From assembly GCA_950295325.1 (NCBI GenBank), contig OX485803.1:64247554-64311553 (forward strand): a stretch of DNA of 64,000 nucleotides. Reading direction: 5' to 3'. The notes under the pieces are model-generated. The model was not told where the DNA came from. It did not search any database and saw only the letters and a program-made list of their open reading frames with translations. This document shows, in pieces, positions 2,766 to 59,296 of the stretch. The position numbers were made by a program, and so were the translations under genes. Numbering within the stretch: the stretch's first letter is position 1; every line of letters starts with the position of its first letter. Origin of the DNA: Polytrichum commune. Its lineage: Eukaryota; Streptophyta; Polytrichopsida; Polytrichales; Polytrichaceae.

Positions 2766-3175
2766 TTTCTCCTCCTCCTTCTTCATTGTTGGATAACATA
2801 TATGGCCGCCTTGGAATGAAACCCCATCGTATTGTGGTAACTAGCTAGGGATTGCGTCAATTACAATAGGCTCTTAGCTAGGGCCGGTTAAACATAGAAG
2901 CCCTTCTCCTCCTTCTTCTTCATTGTTGGATAACATATATGCCCGCCTTGGAATGAAATCCCATCGTATTGTGGTAACAAGCTAGGGATTGTGTCAATTA
3001 CAATAGGCTCTTAGCTAGGGCCGGTTAAACATAGAAGCCTTTCTCCTCCTTCTTCTTCATCGTTGGATAACATATATAGTAGCCGCCTTGGAGAAACCCA
3101 TTGTATTGTGGTAACTAGCTAGGGATTGCGTCAACTACGATAGGCTCTTAGCTAGGGCCGGTTAAACATAGACGG
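2766..3175. repeat. Tandem repeat, three copies of about 137 bp
   Basis: Three head-to-tail copies share the anchor TTGGATAACATATAT, whose copies start near 2788, 2926 and 3063, spacing 136-138 bp. Each copy then has a CCGCCTTGGA block, CTAGGGATTG, and a TAGGCTCTTAGCTAGGGCC block. The copies differ at only a few positions, so the duplication is fairly recent. No coding role is visible. Confidence 0.9.
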
Positions 3176-49829: not shown

Positions 49830-49853
49830 GACTACAACAAAACATGTCTTTTA
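49830..49853 (+). repeat. Left terminal inverted repeat of the CACTA element
   Basis: GACTACAACAAAACATGTCT and following TTTA pair with the right end at 59271-59296, allowing a 2-nt gap. The usual first base C is G here, and the flanking CTC differs from the right flank CTG. Confidence 0.8.
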
Positions 49854-52167: not shown

Positions 52168-52505
52168 CATGTAACTACTTAGTTTATGCCTGATTATTAT
52201 TTAGATTACCCCTTGGAGGCCACATGCGAAGCCTTGTTTTTTTTTTTCACATGTTGTCTTGTAGCCCTTTCGACTGCATTCATTTGTTGTTCACTGTGTC
52301 AAGTAATGACAATTACTACATCAAGTAAAGCTATGCGCTTTAAGGTAAAGGAATGCACAGTAGAAATTCTCTGGACTACTTAACACAAATGTGGGGCTCC
52401 TGTTATTGTTAATTTGATTTTGCAGCTATGCCAACATCTATGAGTCCATAATTGAAGGTCACATTTGGAGTAACGAGATTTCGTTTTCTTTAATATAGAT
52501 TCAAA

Positions 52506-52583
52506 ATGGATGGATCATCAAGGCGCGCAATGTTGGACTTGGAGCAGTACCAACTACTGCTACTGCTATGGCCATGGGAGTAG
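52506..52583 (+). pseudogene. Truncated duplicate of the transposase-associated exon
   Basis: The frame MDGSSRRAMLDLEQ matches MDATSRHAMLDLEL at 53273, then diverges and stops at 52581. The similarity extends upstream: 52246-52550 aligns with about 52946-53320 (shared CCAACATCT, AATTGAAGGTC, AAAATGGATG). A segment of about 0.7-0.8 kb was duplicated in tandem and this upstream copy has lost its coding part. It could still supply an alternative promoter or first exon. Confidence 0.7.
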
Positions 52584-52973
52584 GAGACTATTTACCGCAA
52601 GAGGGCAGAGTTTTCGGTTGGTGAACTCTGAAGTAAGTTTTCACTTTTCTGCACCCTCAAGTAATTTTTCACTTTACCTGATAACTACATTGTGTTGTGG
52701 AATTAGTGAAGGTTACCATTTGGAGTGATGTGTAGGCTAAAACCTTTTACATGAAGTTATTTTTAGCAACTAAGTTATAGCATATCATTCAGTCTGTAGG
52801 CTAAGTACTTATTTTATTTGTAAGAGAAAAGACACTCTCGATAAAAGCGGCAACAACACGGAATTCCAAGTAGTAGCCCATGTGTATTTGACAATACAAT
52901 GTACACTAAATATAATAAGATTTAATGTGTTGATTTAGGATTCACATGTTCTATAATTGCCCTTTCAACTGTG

Positions 52974-53097
52974 AAGTAATGTCACTATGTGAAGTAATGT
53001 CATTTACTTCATGACGTAATGTTATTTACTCCATGAAGTAATGTCATAGTAATGTGACAATGTGAAGTAATGTCATTTACTACATGAAGTAAAGACG
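52974..53097. repeat. TGAAGTAATGTCA minisatellite in the CACTA element
   Basis: The word TGAAGTAATGTCA and close variants (TGACGTAATGTTA, TTACTTCATGA on the other strand) occur about seven times. Related GTAATG words recur at 54280-54460 and 56330-56460. Clustered short motifs are known as transposase-binding sites in En/Spm-type elements, but there they lie near the termini; here they are internal. Confidence 0.75.
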
Positions 53098-53272: not shown

Positions 53273-54156
53273 ATGGATGCAACATCGAGGCACGCAATGT
53301 TGGACTTGGAGCTATGGGACTTGGAAGAAAAAGAAGCGGACAAAAGAAGATTGGTAAAGTATCGTTGCCCTTGTAGTATGTGTGCAGGGGGGAAGGTATT
53401 GTCAAGAGCAACCATACGAAAACATCTTCGTCGATACAAACGTGATTCCACATTTACGAAATCCATATTGGTGAGTAAAATATATAGTCATTTTCGAATT
53501 ATATTATATTGTAAACGAGACAATTGAATTATGACGTAACATTGATTCCCTTCGTGTAGGCACAAAGACGACTCTTTGTTGAGGCCGCGGCCAAGGTGGC
53601 TATTCAATTGTTTTTTAAAGAGTCCACAACCCCAAAACATGTCCCCCAAAAGAGAAATTACACTAAGGAGGAGCTGAAATTGATGAATTGGAGGCGTGAA
53701 GCTTTCGATGGGCAGTGGTGCAATGGGCCCATACCGAAGTTCACTACTTTCAGTTTTCACCAAAGAAACTGGGTGGTGAAAATTTCAAAATTTTCATTTA
53801 TGGGTTGGGGTTTGTTTGCCATGGATTCCGCAAAAGAAGGAAATATTCTCTTGCCATTTGTAGGTCCCCAATATAGCAAGTCAGAATATAGAAAAATGAA
53901 AAGTCTTGTACCAAGCTTCAAGAGTTATGTCCTTAAAGCTGAGGAAGATATTTACATAGACGGGAGTGTGGAGAAGGGCAATGTTGCTGGATTTATCAAC
54001 AGCTCCATAGGGCGAGAGGAAATTGGCAATGTAGTGTGGGAGTATAGTATGCTTCCCAAACCTTGGAAGGAGAATAAGTGGGGTTTTGTTATGACAATTG
54101 CATCAAGGGATATAGAGGCAGGAGAAGAGTTGTATGCGCATTACTCCGTGAATTAA
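53273..54156 (+). CDS. Transposase-associated zinc-finger-like exon spliced to a SET domain
   Basis: Two exons (53273-53470 and 53560-54156; GTGAGT donor, GTAG acceptor, phase 0) encode 264 residues. Residues 1-66 contain YRCPCSMCAGGKVLSRATIRKHLRRY, the Cys-rich and helical core of the transposase-associated domain found at the N-terminus of plant CACTA transposases. Residues about 137-264 look like a SET domain: GWGLFA (148-153) as the cofactor loop, GNVAGFINSS (206-215) at the place of the canonical NHSC motif, and EELYAHYS (255-262) with the conserved Tyr. SET enzymes methylate protein lysines using S-adenosylmethionine. The NHSC His-Ser-Cys is altered to NSS, so activity is uncertain. The frame has no internal stops, unlike the transposase after it. 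A GTGAAT at 54148 could be a donor joining in phase to the transposase exon at 54627. Confidence 0.8.
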
Positions 54157-54279
54157 ATTCCCGTGATTTTGTTGAGATATTTTTCGAATTTAATGCATCA
54201 GCAATTTCACCACTATGTCTTGTACTTGGAGCAGCTAAGAGTTGTGATGGGGTGTCATATATTAATCTCAACTATGTAT

Positions 54280-54460
54280 AGTAATGACAATGTGCTACTT
54301 TTCATAGTAATGGTGCATAGTAATGTGCTATTGTTCCTAGTAATAGTGTATAGTAATGTGCTACTGTTCATAGTAATGGTGCATAGTTGTAGTGCATAGT
54401 AATGGTGCATAGCTTTTAAGCTGCCACAACCCTACTATTACTGTATATAGTAATGATCTA
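54280..54460. repeat. CATAGTAATG-type short repeats in the CACTA element
   Basis: Variants of GTGCATAGTAATG and CTGTTCATAGTAATG occur about ten times between the SET stop codon and the transposase exon. They resemble the arrays at 52974-53097 and 56330-56460. They make part of the intergenic or intronic segment and explain the repetitive open frame at 54163-54399. Confidence 0.75.
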
Positions 54461-54626
54461 CTTACACTCCAGGAATGCTACAGGTCCTGTCCAGTTTACC
54501 GTGCTTGCACAGAAGATTGTTTTTTCCCTTTGGGATGGTCATCAATTATAGATTCTCAAATGTTTGTAAATACATAAGGTTACTAAGAGCAAATGTATTG
54601 TTTTCTTCTTCATGGTGCACATGTAG

Positions 54627-57459
54627 GAGGTCAACAATGACATTTATATTGCCCAAAAAGACATATGTATGGTGACCCAAGAAGGGAGGTATATGACGGC
54701 ACAAGGAAATAATGATATGGAAATAGGAGTAGCCGAAGACATTGTTCCACACGAAAATGCAGAAGTGTTGTAGGATAATAATGAGGAAATGGAGGTAATC
54801 CGGATGGTCCACGAATGTTTCGAGAGGTTTGATGGTTTGCCCGGATATACAAATACCACTCCAAATGAAGAGGGAATTGAGGAAGAACTTCAGGGAACTC
54901 ACGAAGATTTGGATGAATTGGCCAATATACATCCCCATGTAGGTGATAAAGTCAATGACGACATTGCCGACAACACGGAGGACTTATTGAAAGAAGCCAA
55001 CACCCCACTATTCAAGAACAACCCTACCAACCGGTTACAAGCAGTTCTCATGCTCCTTAATGTGTGCATCATTTTTGGAGTTTCCAACGCATGTGTCGAC
55101 GAGTTGTTGAAACTGCTAAAACATGATCTACTCCCAAGAGAAAACACTTGTCCTCAATCACACTACGAGGCCAAAAGATTGGTGAAGAAGTTGGGTTTGA
55201 GCTACAATACTATCCATGCGTGCAAGAATGGCCATTGCTTATTTAGGAACGAACTCAAGGACGCAAAAGTGTGTCCGGAATGCAAGGAATCTCGGTATGT
55301 TCCGAATTCGGATAGTATTCCAGTGAAAGTGTTGCGACACTTCCCTCTTATACCTCGGTTGCTCCGAATGTACCGTTACAAACGACTAGCCAAACTTATT
55401 ACGTGGCATATTGAGGGGAAAAGCAAGGATTCCACCATAAGATCGATTGTGGATTCAAAGGCATGGAAACACGTGGACGCAAGGTGGCCGGAGTTTGCGA
55501 AGGAGCCCCGGAATCTACGTTTGGCACTAGCGTTGGATGGTGTCAACCCTTTCTCTAACCAATCTTTAAGTCACTCTATATGGCCAATTGTATTGCTAAA
55601 CTACAACTTGCCACCTTGGTTGGTCACCAAGCGGTTTTTTGTGATGCTATTCCTAATCATTCCCGGCAAAGAAAGTGTGAAAGAAGAAAACATACATGTG
55701 TACTTAGCACCATTGGTGGAGGAACTACAAAGATTGTGAGAAAGGGTGATTGCAAAGGACGGATCCATTTTAGAGAAGGCATATGAAAGTGTAGAGGATA
55801 CACAGAATACGAACCCAAATTTTAAGCTTGAAGCGATTCTTATGTGAAGCATTCATGACTTCCCGGCATATGGATTGCTTGCCGGGCAAGTCACGAAGGG
55901 GTACTGGGGTTGTCCCCCATGTGGGCCAAATGTGGCAACAAGGAGGTCTAAGTCATTGGGAAAAAATGTTTATCTTGGTCATCGTCGTTATTTGACAATG
56001 AACCATCCTTACAGACGATTAAAAAGTAGTTTCGATGGAAGAGAGGAACGCCGAGGCCCCCCGCAGATATTGTTGCCACGCGATATTTTGCGGTTTGCTA
56101 AACAAAGAGAAGATTGGTTGCTAGAGTCGCCGATCAATAAGGAAGGAAATAAATTGGATCCAATCCACGAGCATGGAGTAAAGAGGAAGAACACACTTTA
56201 TGCGTTACCATATTAGAAGGTGCATACCGAAAACTCGTTTTACCTGAATTGATGAGCATATGTTATGGGTTTTATTTGAACATCAGAAGTTTACGAAGGC
56301 GGTAATTTGATTATATCACAGTCGAAGTAAATGGACACCGTTACTATGGGAAGTAATATATGTCTATCAGAAGTGAATGAACATGATTATTTGAAGTAAT
56401 TGAACATGACTAGTTGTAGTCATGTTCATACTCCATTACTTAACTAAGTAGTGGTATAGTCATATAGGGGAACAATTGTTGTTGCACTTACTATAATTCA
56501 GTTATAAGGAATGCAACACAATGCAATCCAGTTAACCTGTAGTTTTTTGGTACAACTGGGCCTTCTTATACGCAACACCCTGGATGTAATGCATTGCGAG
56601 AAAAACATAACGGAAAGTCTCATGAAATTTCTATTTGGGGAGAAGGATACAGTAAAGGTTCGCATGGACCTGAAAGAAGCCAACATAAGGCCGCATTTGT
56701 GGCCCATACCGGGGAAAAAACAAGGAAGCTTGACATTGCCGCAAACCCCATATGTGCTGACAAAGAGAGAAGGAGGTGTTCGTGGATGTTGTGCGGCAGC
56801 TGAAAACTCCTACTCACTATGTTGGCCAATTGAGAAAAAAAGTCCACGTGGATGGGAGTCTGAAAGGATTGAAATTCCATGATTACCATGTCCTTATGCA
56901 GCAAGTCTTGCCTCTCTATGTACGCACGATCATGAGAAAGGAGGTTCGTATATGTATAATAAGATTGAGCCGGATATTCAAACGATTGTGCGCCAAAACT
57001 ATCAACCCATTAGAAATGAGCGACTTGCGAGAGGATACAGCCATCACATTGTCCATGATCGAAAAAGAGTTTCCACTGGCATTTTTTGATGTCATGACGC
57101 ACATTTTGGTGCACTTGGTGGAGGAACTAGATATTTGTGGGCCAGTACATGTCCGTTGGATGTATCATATGAAGAAGAACCTGAAAATATTGAAGGGCTA
57201 TGTTCGAAATCGCGCAAGACCCGAAGCTAGTATGACTGAAGGATATGCCATAGATGAAGCTATTGGCTTTTGCACAGAGTATATACAATCATATACCGTT
57301 ACAAGTCGTAGGGTATGGGATGATAAAGAAGACCCTACAATGAACGACGAAATACTCGAAGGTGTTGGGCGACCAATGATACTAACACCAAAGATACGCG
57401 ATTGGATACACGAATTTGTGGTCAATAATGTGGCTCCCTTACAGCCGTGGAGAGAGTAA
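54627..57459 (+). pseudogene. CACTA tnp2 transposase with DUF4218 domain, disrupted
   Basis: An exon opening after TAG at 54626 runs in one frame to 56216. It contains CPQSHYEAKRLVKKLGLSY, CKNGHCLFRNEL, CPECKESRY, LRLALALDGVNPF, SIHDFPAYG, LGHRRYLTMNHPYRR and the start of LPYWK, in tnp2 order. In-frame stops occur at 54771 (TAG), 55737 (TGA), 55845 (TGA) and 56214 (TAG). The last three sit where the family has Trp. After a probable intron, the frame from about 56540 gives LLIRNTLDVMHCEKN, PHLWPIPGKKQ and LTKRE, then a +1 frameshift at about 56770 leads into the DUF4218 frame (HDYHVLMQQVLPLYVR, EEFLDI-like VEELDICGPVHVRWMY, EGYAIDEAIGF) to 57459, where GAGAGTAAGT looks like a donor. It would excise and insert the element; this copy cannot make a full product. 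Confidence 0.9.
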
Positions 57460-58015
57460 GTTACTTCATCACACATGCATAATGCATTGATACTTACAAA
57501 TAAAAAGTCCATACCAAATGAATGTGATCTAATTGTTTGTTATGCCCATAGGAATTGAATGTCATCTGAGAGGAAAAAAAAAAATATTGTGCCACCAATG
57601 TAGATCACTTACTAATGCTCAGAGTATGTGTCAACAAAGAAAGTGTAAGACACGAATAAATTGTTTTATTTTACAGGCACCACATTGCAATTGTGAAATT
57701 CTTGCACTTACAAACATTTGCATCTCACTACACAAAGTCAACTTACAAGAAGATCACTGCCTCTAGTAATCTCGATTAAAAACTCAGTATATTCATAATT
57801 GTACGTAGTAACTGTACATGTCATATCACAATAGTTAAATTTTAAACTCTATGCAGTAACATGACAAAGTCATATTACAAAACATTACTGCCTCTAGTAT
57901 TCTTTGACAATAACGAATGAGAATCATAACTCTATGTAGTATCTGTATAAGTCCTTCATGTACGCACTGAGTTAGTGTTTCGCGTAAACATGTAAGGCAT
58001 CACAGAAACGTTTTA

Positions 58016-58912
58016 ATGTACAAGCGTCACATTGTAAGTATGGCACAACGCAAACTGGAACGTGCAGAATATTGGAGGAAAAAACGAAATGGCCGAATTC
58101 TTTATTCTGAAGACCTTCGAGATGAAGGGTTTCCCAAGTGGTTCAAATCGGCTGTTTCTTGCGCTAAAGAAGCGGGAGAGGCGATTGATGAAGATGTGCT
58201 GGTATTGTCTCTTCCACCCTCCAACCAAGCAGCATCGTACCGCTCTATGTATGCCTTCAGAAATCATATCCGCGTGCATAGTGCGGAAGGAACTTTGACC
58301 ACGGTTGACTCTGGCGTGGCCGCCACATTCTCCCAACATTGCCGGTCTAGTGTACATGCCAGGAACTTCAAGGCGGCAAACTTGGAGTATGTGGGATGGG
58401 TGGAGGAAACATTGGCCGTGAACTATGATAGGTATGAACTAATTGTGTTGTATTGCAATTGGGTGATGACAAACATGGTTGGGCATAATGCTACCATGAA
58501 GCGAGACGATTATGGCTTTAGCCTAGTGAATTTTAATATATTAGTGCCACTATCAGCCGAATCTTTCGCATTTCCACTACACGTTGAGCAAGTATTCTTT
58601 GCGGACGATTTGAACAATTATGGATGGAAGGTGGTTCTACGAAAAGAGCCAAAGGGAGCAAGAGTCATTTCTACAAAAGATTCTATACTAGATATAGGAT
58701 GCCTATCTTTAGGCAATATGAGAAACCATTGTAGATTGAAACCAACATCATTAGATAATGATGCAACCCCAACTGACCCAATATTAGATGAGGTTGTGGC
58801 TCTAAGCAGTGACGAGGTGCTCGCAGCTTTGAACACAGACAACCATAAACCGTCTTCTGAAGACAAGGATGAAGTTGCATTTGAAGAAGATGGTCATGCT
58901 CCTCTAGATTAA
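58016..58912 (+). CDS. CACTA transposase C-terminal part, DUF4216 domain
   Basis: An intact 298-codon frame. YRSMYAFRNHIRVHSAEGTL, DSGVAATFSQ, LEYVGWVEE, YELIVLYCNWV, RDDYGFSLVNFN, SFAFPLHVEQVFFADDL and GWKVVLRKEP are landmarks of DUF4216, the last domain of plant CACTA transposases. The N-terminal part (MAQRKLERAEYWRKK) is basic and the C-terminus acidic (SSEDKDEVAFEEDG). ATG at 58016 may be internal to a larger spliced transposase rather than a true start, since the upstream exon at 57459 ends at a donor-like site. It lacks stops, unlike the tnp2 part. Confidence 0.8.
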   Translation: MYKRHIVSMAQRKLERAEYWRKKRNGRILYSEDLRDEGFPKWFKSAVSCAKEAGEAIDEDVLVLSLPPSNQAASYRSMYAFRNHIRVHSAEGTLTTVDSGVAATFSQHCRSSVHARNFKAANLEYVGWVEETLAVNYDRYELIVLYCNWVMTNMVGHNATMKRDDYGFSLVNFNILVPLSAESFAFPLHVEQVFFADDLNNYGWKVVLRKEPKGARVISTKDSILDIGCLSLGNMRNHCRLKPTSLDNDATPTDPILDEVVALSSDEVLAALNTDNHKPSSEDKDEVAFEEDGHAPLD

Positions 58913-59270: not shown

Positions 59271-59296
59271 TAAAAGACGTGTTTTGTTGTAGTGCT
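59271..59296 (-). repeat. Right terminal inverted repeat of the CACTA element
   Basis: Ends in TTTTGTTGTAGTG. Its reverse complement starts with the canonical CACTACAACAAAAC and pairs with the left end at 49830. Confidence 0.85.

Follow-up and report, generated by a model that had tools for sequence, protein, structure and literature searches.

The presence of an exon resembling a SET methyltransferase domain inside a CACTA transposon raises the question whether this exon is a part of the transposase, a captured fragment without function or a gene product in its own right. The window analysed is a stretch of 64,000 nucleotides of DNA from the moss Polytrichum commune, and the SET-carrying element in it is a CACTA element of 9.5 kb. 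Its terminal inverted repeats (TIRs), with 23-nt arms at 49831-49853 and 59271-59293 that are 96% complementary, bound the element, which bears out the location within such repeats proposed by an initial annotation made from the sequence. The left TIR (49830-49853, plus strand) starts with G instead of C in the window copy, giving the terminus GACTA and not CACTA, and 13 of the 14 terminal bases match; the right TIR (59271-59294, minus strand) reads CACTACAACAAAA inwards. The ends of the window element are GACTACAAC on the left and CACTACAAC on the right, and the element at locus L014 has CACTACTACAAAA at both ends (14/14). The flanking triplets are CTC and CTG for the window element and AAA on either side for L014; as CTC and CTG differ, the window element is without an exact target duplication. 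A left TIR was not found in the fetched DNA of L007, L009, L012 and L013, further upstream DNA included, nor in that of L011. Subterminal repeats, to which an element-encoded protein might attach, were sought as exact copies; within the 600 bp at each end of the window element, no 9-mer reached three occurrences. The heptamer AGTAATG was counted 14 times on the plus strand of this element and three times on the minus strand.

The coding parts all lie on the plus strand. The transposase-associated (TA) exon (53273-53470) has a Met start, 66 codons and a C-x-C-x2-C...H zinc-finger-like motif. It is followed by an intron of 89 bp with GT...AG borders (53471-53559; donor GTGAGT at 53471, phase 0) and by the SET exon (53560-54156), which consists of 198 codons and its own stop TAA (54154-54156). 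The DNA between the SET exon and the tnp2 exon (54157-54626) ends in a phase-0 acceptor (TGTAG), after which the sequence continues with GAGGTCAAC at 54627. The tnp2 transposase matched PF02992 in two parts, at 54774-55736 (E 4.2e-36) and 55848-56213 (E 3.9e-22). The DUF4218 part of the CACTA transposase gene lies at 56761-57456 (E 2.3e-32) and the DUF4216 part at 57971-58909 (E 1.1e-6; 29.5 bits, just under the cut-off of 30.6). The element thus has both tnp2 (Transposase_21) and CACTA-type TIRs. The tnp2 frame is broken in the window copy and open in several relatives. The beginning of the TA exon is partially duplicated on the plus strand at 52473-52545, 767 bp upstream of the matching segment 53240-53312 (82% match), and among the loci compared only the window copy has this duplication; the adjoining segment 52555-52700 is held by L008. 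Repeat clusters of AAGTAATG and ATAGTAATG at 52973-53092 and 54278-54449 flank the TA and SET exons, and ATAGTAATG is absent from L009, L012 and L013.

The identity of the two exons was analysed with domain profiles. The open reading frame at 53560-54156 matched the SET profile PF00856 with E 3.3e-10 and 40.7 bits (cut-off 22.4) over positions 1-104 of 105, so the SET-like domain reported by the initial annotation is real. The profile was also matched at E 0.1 or better by all 21 aligned element SETs, with a best value of 1.2e-11, and a sequence search of the PDB with the SET exon gave a Set1-type H3K4 methyltransferase as best match (E 3.8e-5). Two of the 21 SET proteins weakly matched Ntox17 (best E 0.00089). 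For the first exon, described earlier as a transposase-associated zinc-finger-like exon, the motif was found and its C-x-C-x2-C...H pattern is also present in relatives; the match to Transpos_assoc PF13963 stayed at 20.6 bits (E 4.9e-4), below the curated cut-off of 27.7. The exon coordinates and the product length of 264 residues (66 + 198) were right.

The splice sites gave insight into how the parts are joined. The donor TTG|GTGAGT and the acceptor TGTAG|GC agree in phase 0, in accordance with the in-phase joining of TA and SET exons described earlier. A survey covered 54 of the 62 SET records, L005 and L026 being one place, and omitted four duplicates, the deep L015-L017 and L063, which has no TA-exon match. 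The donor GT of the TA exon was present in 50 of these 54 records, the four misses being the decayed L021-L024, and the acceptor AG of the SET exon in 53 (miss: L055); reading through the intron met a stop in all 54. In families A and C the acceptor of the tnp2 exon has phase 0 as well; that of family B was sought and not pinned down. With phase 0 at both acceptors, the TA exon of families A and C can keep its frame on joining the SET exon and equally on joining the tnp2 exon, and two proteins from alternative joining of the TA exon are predicted for these families, one of them a separate TA-SET protein of 264 residues. The initial annotation had instead taken the SET as a domain fused into the transposase protein, and this part did not hold, since the SET exon carries its own TAA. 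A single TA-SET-tnp2 transposase would agree with the common strand, the one gene region and the adjacent exons, and is nevertheless the least credible of the readings weighed here, because the intact copies that were translated have the SET exon stop, and inspection by eye of the families compared gave no common donor ahead of it.

The distribution of the SET exon was studied in the moss's own 408-Mb genome, which has seven large contigs (C1-C7). The 198-residue SET protein gave 150 scored matches among 204 first-look candidates, and after merging at least 136 SET copies remained; with so many copies in the genome, the SET exon is not a random insertion present only in this element. For at least 88 of the 136 copies a tnp2 match follows downstream on the same strand at a distance of no more than 8 kb, against about 0.19 expected by chance, and none has a scored tnp2 match on the wrong side or strand. 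This count used 145 tnp2 matches, namely 125 listed and 20 hand-picked from further lists, and is a lower bound. The examination of unlinked copies covered nine of 48, including five (L065-L069) that were chosen and are not a random sample; four of the nine have a tnp2 that had not been scored earlier, one is an internal-deletion derivative and four are decayed. The TA exon, SET, tnp2, DUF4218 and DUF4216 are all present in L065, L066 and L067, and L069 holds SET, tnp2 and DUF4218 with no TA-exon match. In L068 (C3:18187400-18194700) an internal deletion lets the SET frame continue into DUF4216 in a 336-codon open frame with one TAG. The decayed L021-L024 have kept TA exon, SET and DUF4216, and L023 and L024 also gave short matches to tnp2; they are old non-autonomous derivatives in which the SET exon is kept. 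Two sets of candidates for host genes were rejected: the long SET copies without a scored tnp2, whose downstream DNA gave CACTA parts (L065-L069), and the 326-codon SET frames of 42% identity at C3:52945326 and C5:1795605, considered as host ancestor, which have tnp2 downstream. Of 65 locus records, 63 gave a match to the TA exon, among them L018 and L020, which have no SET; the two without a match are L063 and the likewise SET-less L019. This survey used four queries (window, L012, L013 and L015) and some records are one place taken twice; the deep lineage needs the L015 query, and the match of L015 to itself is no test. The SET-carrying CACTA is therefore a family-wide feature and not an accident.

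The comparison of copies revealed several families. Identity of the SET to the window copy is about 75-100% in family A, 53-58% in family B and about 41-50% in families C and D. The deep lineage L015-L017 has 37% identity to the window element in SET and 29% in tnp2. The order TA exon, SET exon, tnp2 is common to the window copy, families A-D and the deep lineage, in agreement with the placement of the SET exon given at the outset. L015 has a TA-like exon (by eye), a SET in a 326-codon frame with terminal stop and then tnp2, and its later frames resemble the remaining transposase by eye. This deep CACTA lineage (L015-L017, with L078) comprises three near-identical copies and looks recently active; its SET exon is long and rich in proline, and one of its frames, of 629 codons, is DUF4218/DUF4216-like by eye. 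The closest SET exons differ at one of 606 bases, and the SET proteins of L015 and L016 are identical over 197 residues; some copies of the SET element are young.

The selection acting on the SET exon was estimated from dN/dS on 46 of the 62 SET locus records, 16 being left out as duplicate, interrupted, truncated, decayed or too deep. For 70 pairs between groups A1 and A2 the SET exon gave a median dN of 0.119, dS of 0.696 and dN/dS of 0.17. In three A1-A2 pairs the ratio was 0.16-0.22 for SET, 0.13-0.14 for tnp2 and 0.12-0.14 for the TA exon, and in the same pairs 26-34% of aligned sites differ in the first intron and 50-54% in the second. The A1-A2 comparison shows purifying selection on the SET exon at a level close to that on the transposase. 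The medians for SET within groups were 0.21 (A1), 0.42 (A2), 0.44 (B) and 0.84 (C), in a set of intact frames only, which biases young copies toward low ratios more than it does the between-family values; the single pair L009-L010 gave 0.63 for SET, 0.29 for tnp2 and 0.03 for the TA exon. Selection within the young groups looks weaker, a number of SET copies have internal stops and many copies probably decay after insertion.

These results bear on the view that the SET exon is a functionless passenger. A Pack-CACTA passenger is a host fragment carried by an element without its own transposase and is under no selection. Here tnp2 is present in 88 of the 136 copies and in four of the nine further ones, and purifying selection acts between families. 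The internal stops and the dN/dS of up to 0.84 in the young groups would fit a captured fragment, and CACTA elements are described as capturing host genes in the available text of PMC8616336 and PMC13317346. Against this stand the exon, place and orientation, which are constant across families whose synonymous sites are, beyond A1-A2, mostly saturated, along with the A1-A2 selection and the absence of wrong-way copies among those scored. A passenger origin of this kind is consequently very improbable.

The relation to CACTA elements without a SET was examined next to that of the families. A search with an alignment-built profile at E<=10 in 3.3-4.2 kb of fetched DNA each found no SET in L018, L019, L020 and L070-L077 (0/11). 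The TA and tnp2 parts lie in one frame in the SET-less L070, L071, L074 and L075, and in L018 and L020 the TA exon is followed by the tnp2 exon with no SET between. Since TA lies next to tnp2 in SET-less elements, the SET exon fills the TA-tnp2 gap, and as all 11 of these CACTA elements of the same genome are without it, SET is dispensable for CACTA transposition in general. A tnp2 tree was built from 17 of 22 intended rows (L069, L070, L071, L074 and L075 are out, the motif search having given no frame). Three changes of the SET label are needed on this tree, and starred branches force at least two. The SET-less L018-L020 formed a group with families A and B that leaves out C, with support of 88/93, which is below the starred level, and L015 and L072 sit on long branches that make their placement unsure. 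One early gain with losses and transfer between CACTA lineages both fit this history of SET. In a SET tree, 11 of the 21 aligned element SETs form one clade against MLL1, EZH2 and six of the eight fetched host SET pieces, with support of 100/100 and in all 200 bootstraps; the stem is long, long branches meet at the split between element and host, and the host sample is small beside the 29 listed PF00856 matches that lie outside elements.

The catalytic residues of the SET were then considered. G82, G84, L85, D134, G135, N147 and Y195 are invariant in the 21 element SETs, and Y123 is present in at least 90% of them. The histidine of the NHS motif is missing in all 21 aligned proteins, being Ser in 20 and Asn in one (L060); the position reads NSS in 17 rows, NST in L015 and L017, NSF in L063 and NNS in L060. 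The eight host SET pieces read all keep NH. Loss of this histidine inactivates several SET enzymes. The 21 aligned element SETs have no post-SET cysteine cluster, and the chain ends 3-8 residues after Y195. Active SET methyltransferases usually, though not universally, have post-SET cysteines or another C-terminal closure of the pocket. The AlphaFold2 prediction made from the SET exon as a single sequence was not usable as a model (mean pLDDT 34.8). The missing histidine and cysteines, set against the NH of the host pieces, would be explained if the element SET were a pseudo-enzyme, that is, a fold kept as an AdoMet- or protein-binding regulator with no methyltransferase activity, which might, for instance, pair with the transposase or compete with host SETs. 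The retention of G82, G84, N147, Y195 and mostly Y123 as invariant or nearly so, in families only about 32-56% identical to the window protein, points the other way. Animal PR/SET proteins also have no NHS histidine and some of them are active; one of the 21 element SETs weakly matched PRDM2_PR (E 0.009). A pseudo-enzyme is on balance rather unlikely, and its likelihood overlaps with that of the explanation favoured below, as those of the other alternatives do, a pseudo-enzyme being compatible with the two-product reading.

The explanation that we favour, with slightly better than an even chance, is that the exon encodes an alternatively spliced TA-SET protein serving as an anti-silencing regulator, a second gene product that a plant CACTA clade has long had and that selection has kept. 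A single transcript would start with the TA exon, probably a zinc-binding module that contacts DNA. Splicing of this exon to the SET exon would give the 264-residue TA-SET protein, terminated at the stop of the SET exon, and splicing past SET to the tnp2 exon would give the transposase. Because the N-terminal module would be common to both proteins, we propose that TA-SET is recruited to the DNA of the transposase's own element, where the two may meet as TnpA and TnpD do on Spm. TA-SET would then be the element's own chromatin regulator, most likely methylating lysine on histones or on a bound protein, by which the promoter would be kept active and silencing countered. The data suggest that SET-carrying elements may edit their own chromatin. 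A more specific version is offered tentatively, at less than an even chance: an ancient CACTA clade with a built-in pair, in which the TA zinc finger has two splicing partners, the transposase and a divergent PR/SET-like lysine methyltransferase. As a writer of chromatin marks, the latter would be directed to precisely the DNA recognised by the transposase and would open the element's own promoter, the SET arm having been gained before the split of L015 or moved between CACTA lineages and since then probably lost in L018-L020.

The closest parallel for the two products is maize Spm, where alternative splicing of one unit yields TnpA and TnpD, and TNPA restores the activity of a methylated promoter, according to the available text of PMC1636069. 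In Spm/En too, one CACTA unit gives a tnp2 transposase and a shorter second protein. The difference is that TnpA is not described there as a SET protein (PMC1636069), and that the splicing of the moss element is predicted from its sites. The same text states that TNPA also represses the unmethylated Spm promoter (PMC1636069), which is of interest for the opposite direction of action, namely an active methyltransferase that marks the element's own chromatin repressively, limiting copy number, or that methylates the transposase. A PDB search with the 21-member profile gave MLL1 (E 1.3e-6), then ASH1L, EZH2 and others, so the relatives include the repressive EZH2 beside the activating MLL1, Set1 and ASH1L. 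The best matches are MLL1 and ASH1L, which would speak against repression, but at marginal scores that leave the SET class unfixed. A repressive or transposase-methylating enzyme is judged unlikely, and an anti-silencing TA-SET protein is preferred.

Transposons with SET cargo are known. HarbingerS and MuDR transposons of Phytophthora encode a SET histone methyltransferase (Kojima and Jurka, Repbase Reports 2014, cited in PMC12730594), and they are similar to the present case as DNA transposons having a SET-domain gene as their own cargo. They differ in belonging to other transposase superfamilies and to an oomycete, and they are likened here by description and not by SET sequence; the transposase of HarbingerS is of Harbinger type and that of the window element is tnp2, and the available text of PMC12730594 makes no mention of an exon common with the transposase. 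The four architectures of plant CACTA elements, types 1-4, comprise TA, Transposase_21, a DUF4218-type part and DUF4216, in the domain order of the window element; the extras described in the accessible part of PMC8978399 are Peptidase_C48 and Transposase_24 in ORF2, and no SET is listed there, the underlying database search having given 671 matches. TET/JBP dioxygenases in fungal transposons including EnSpm have been proposed as anti-silencing factors (PMC12730594, in the text available) and share with the moss case an epigenetic enzyme aboard a DNA transposon that is thought to counter silencing. They are DNA-base oxidases passed between superfamilies in fungi, whereas the moss case is a SET within CACTA. 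SETMAR of primates likewise combines a SET domain with a transposon-derived DNA-binding part, but, as far as the text of PMC6326780 at hand describes it, it is a single host gene that gained a transposase, unlike a mobile multi-copy element with a SET exon. In wheat, transposable elements, mainly En/Spm and retroelements, were reported in 25 of 130 SET genes in the portion of PMC7471321 available.

Anti-silencing by an element's own product has a further parallel. The VANC proteins of Arabidopsis VANDAL (MuDR) elements are anti-silencing proteins that act for their own element. TA-SET, which would likewise be an element-encoded protein directed against its own silencing, is set beside them by description, VANC being another protein from another transposon superfamily. 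The VANDAL anti-silencing work is cited in the available text of PMC12730594 and PMC13317346. In the open-licence literature searched, at the level of titles and the starts of abstracts, no report of a SET within CACTA was found. As far as this search extends, what is new is that, in a CACTA clade, a SET exon under selection lies next to the transposase's first exon.

In the prevailing view, plant transposons are above all sequences that receive histone methylation. The genome studied here has at least 136 element copies with a SET-type exon, linked to the transposase through a TA exon that both would share. Should TA-SET prove to write a mark, the escape from silencing or its tuning by a transposon could be tested with a protein of 264 residues, and the element would be a natural example of a SET domain directed to chosen DNA. 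There is also a consequence for annotation, as 90 of the 119 SET-profile matches listed for the genome fall on element SET coordinates and 29 outside, and the element SETs would inflate counts of histone methyltransferase genes. Among the other SET domains of the genome, a trithorax-like one at C4:32137945-32138265 lies in one open frame of 1952 codons, which seems unusually long for a single exon of a gene of this kind. LEAFY-type (SAM_LFY) matches were seen at four places, C1:40569930, C7:8639033, C1:62297762 and C7:14030880, three of them strong; in angiosperms LEAFY is usually a single gene, and the four matches hint at a land plant without flowers. In the window itself, a unit of 137 bp is repeated in three tandem copies at 2767-3172 with 93% matching.
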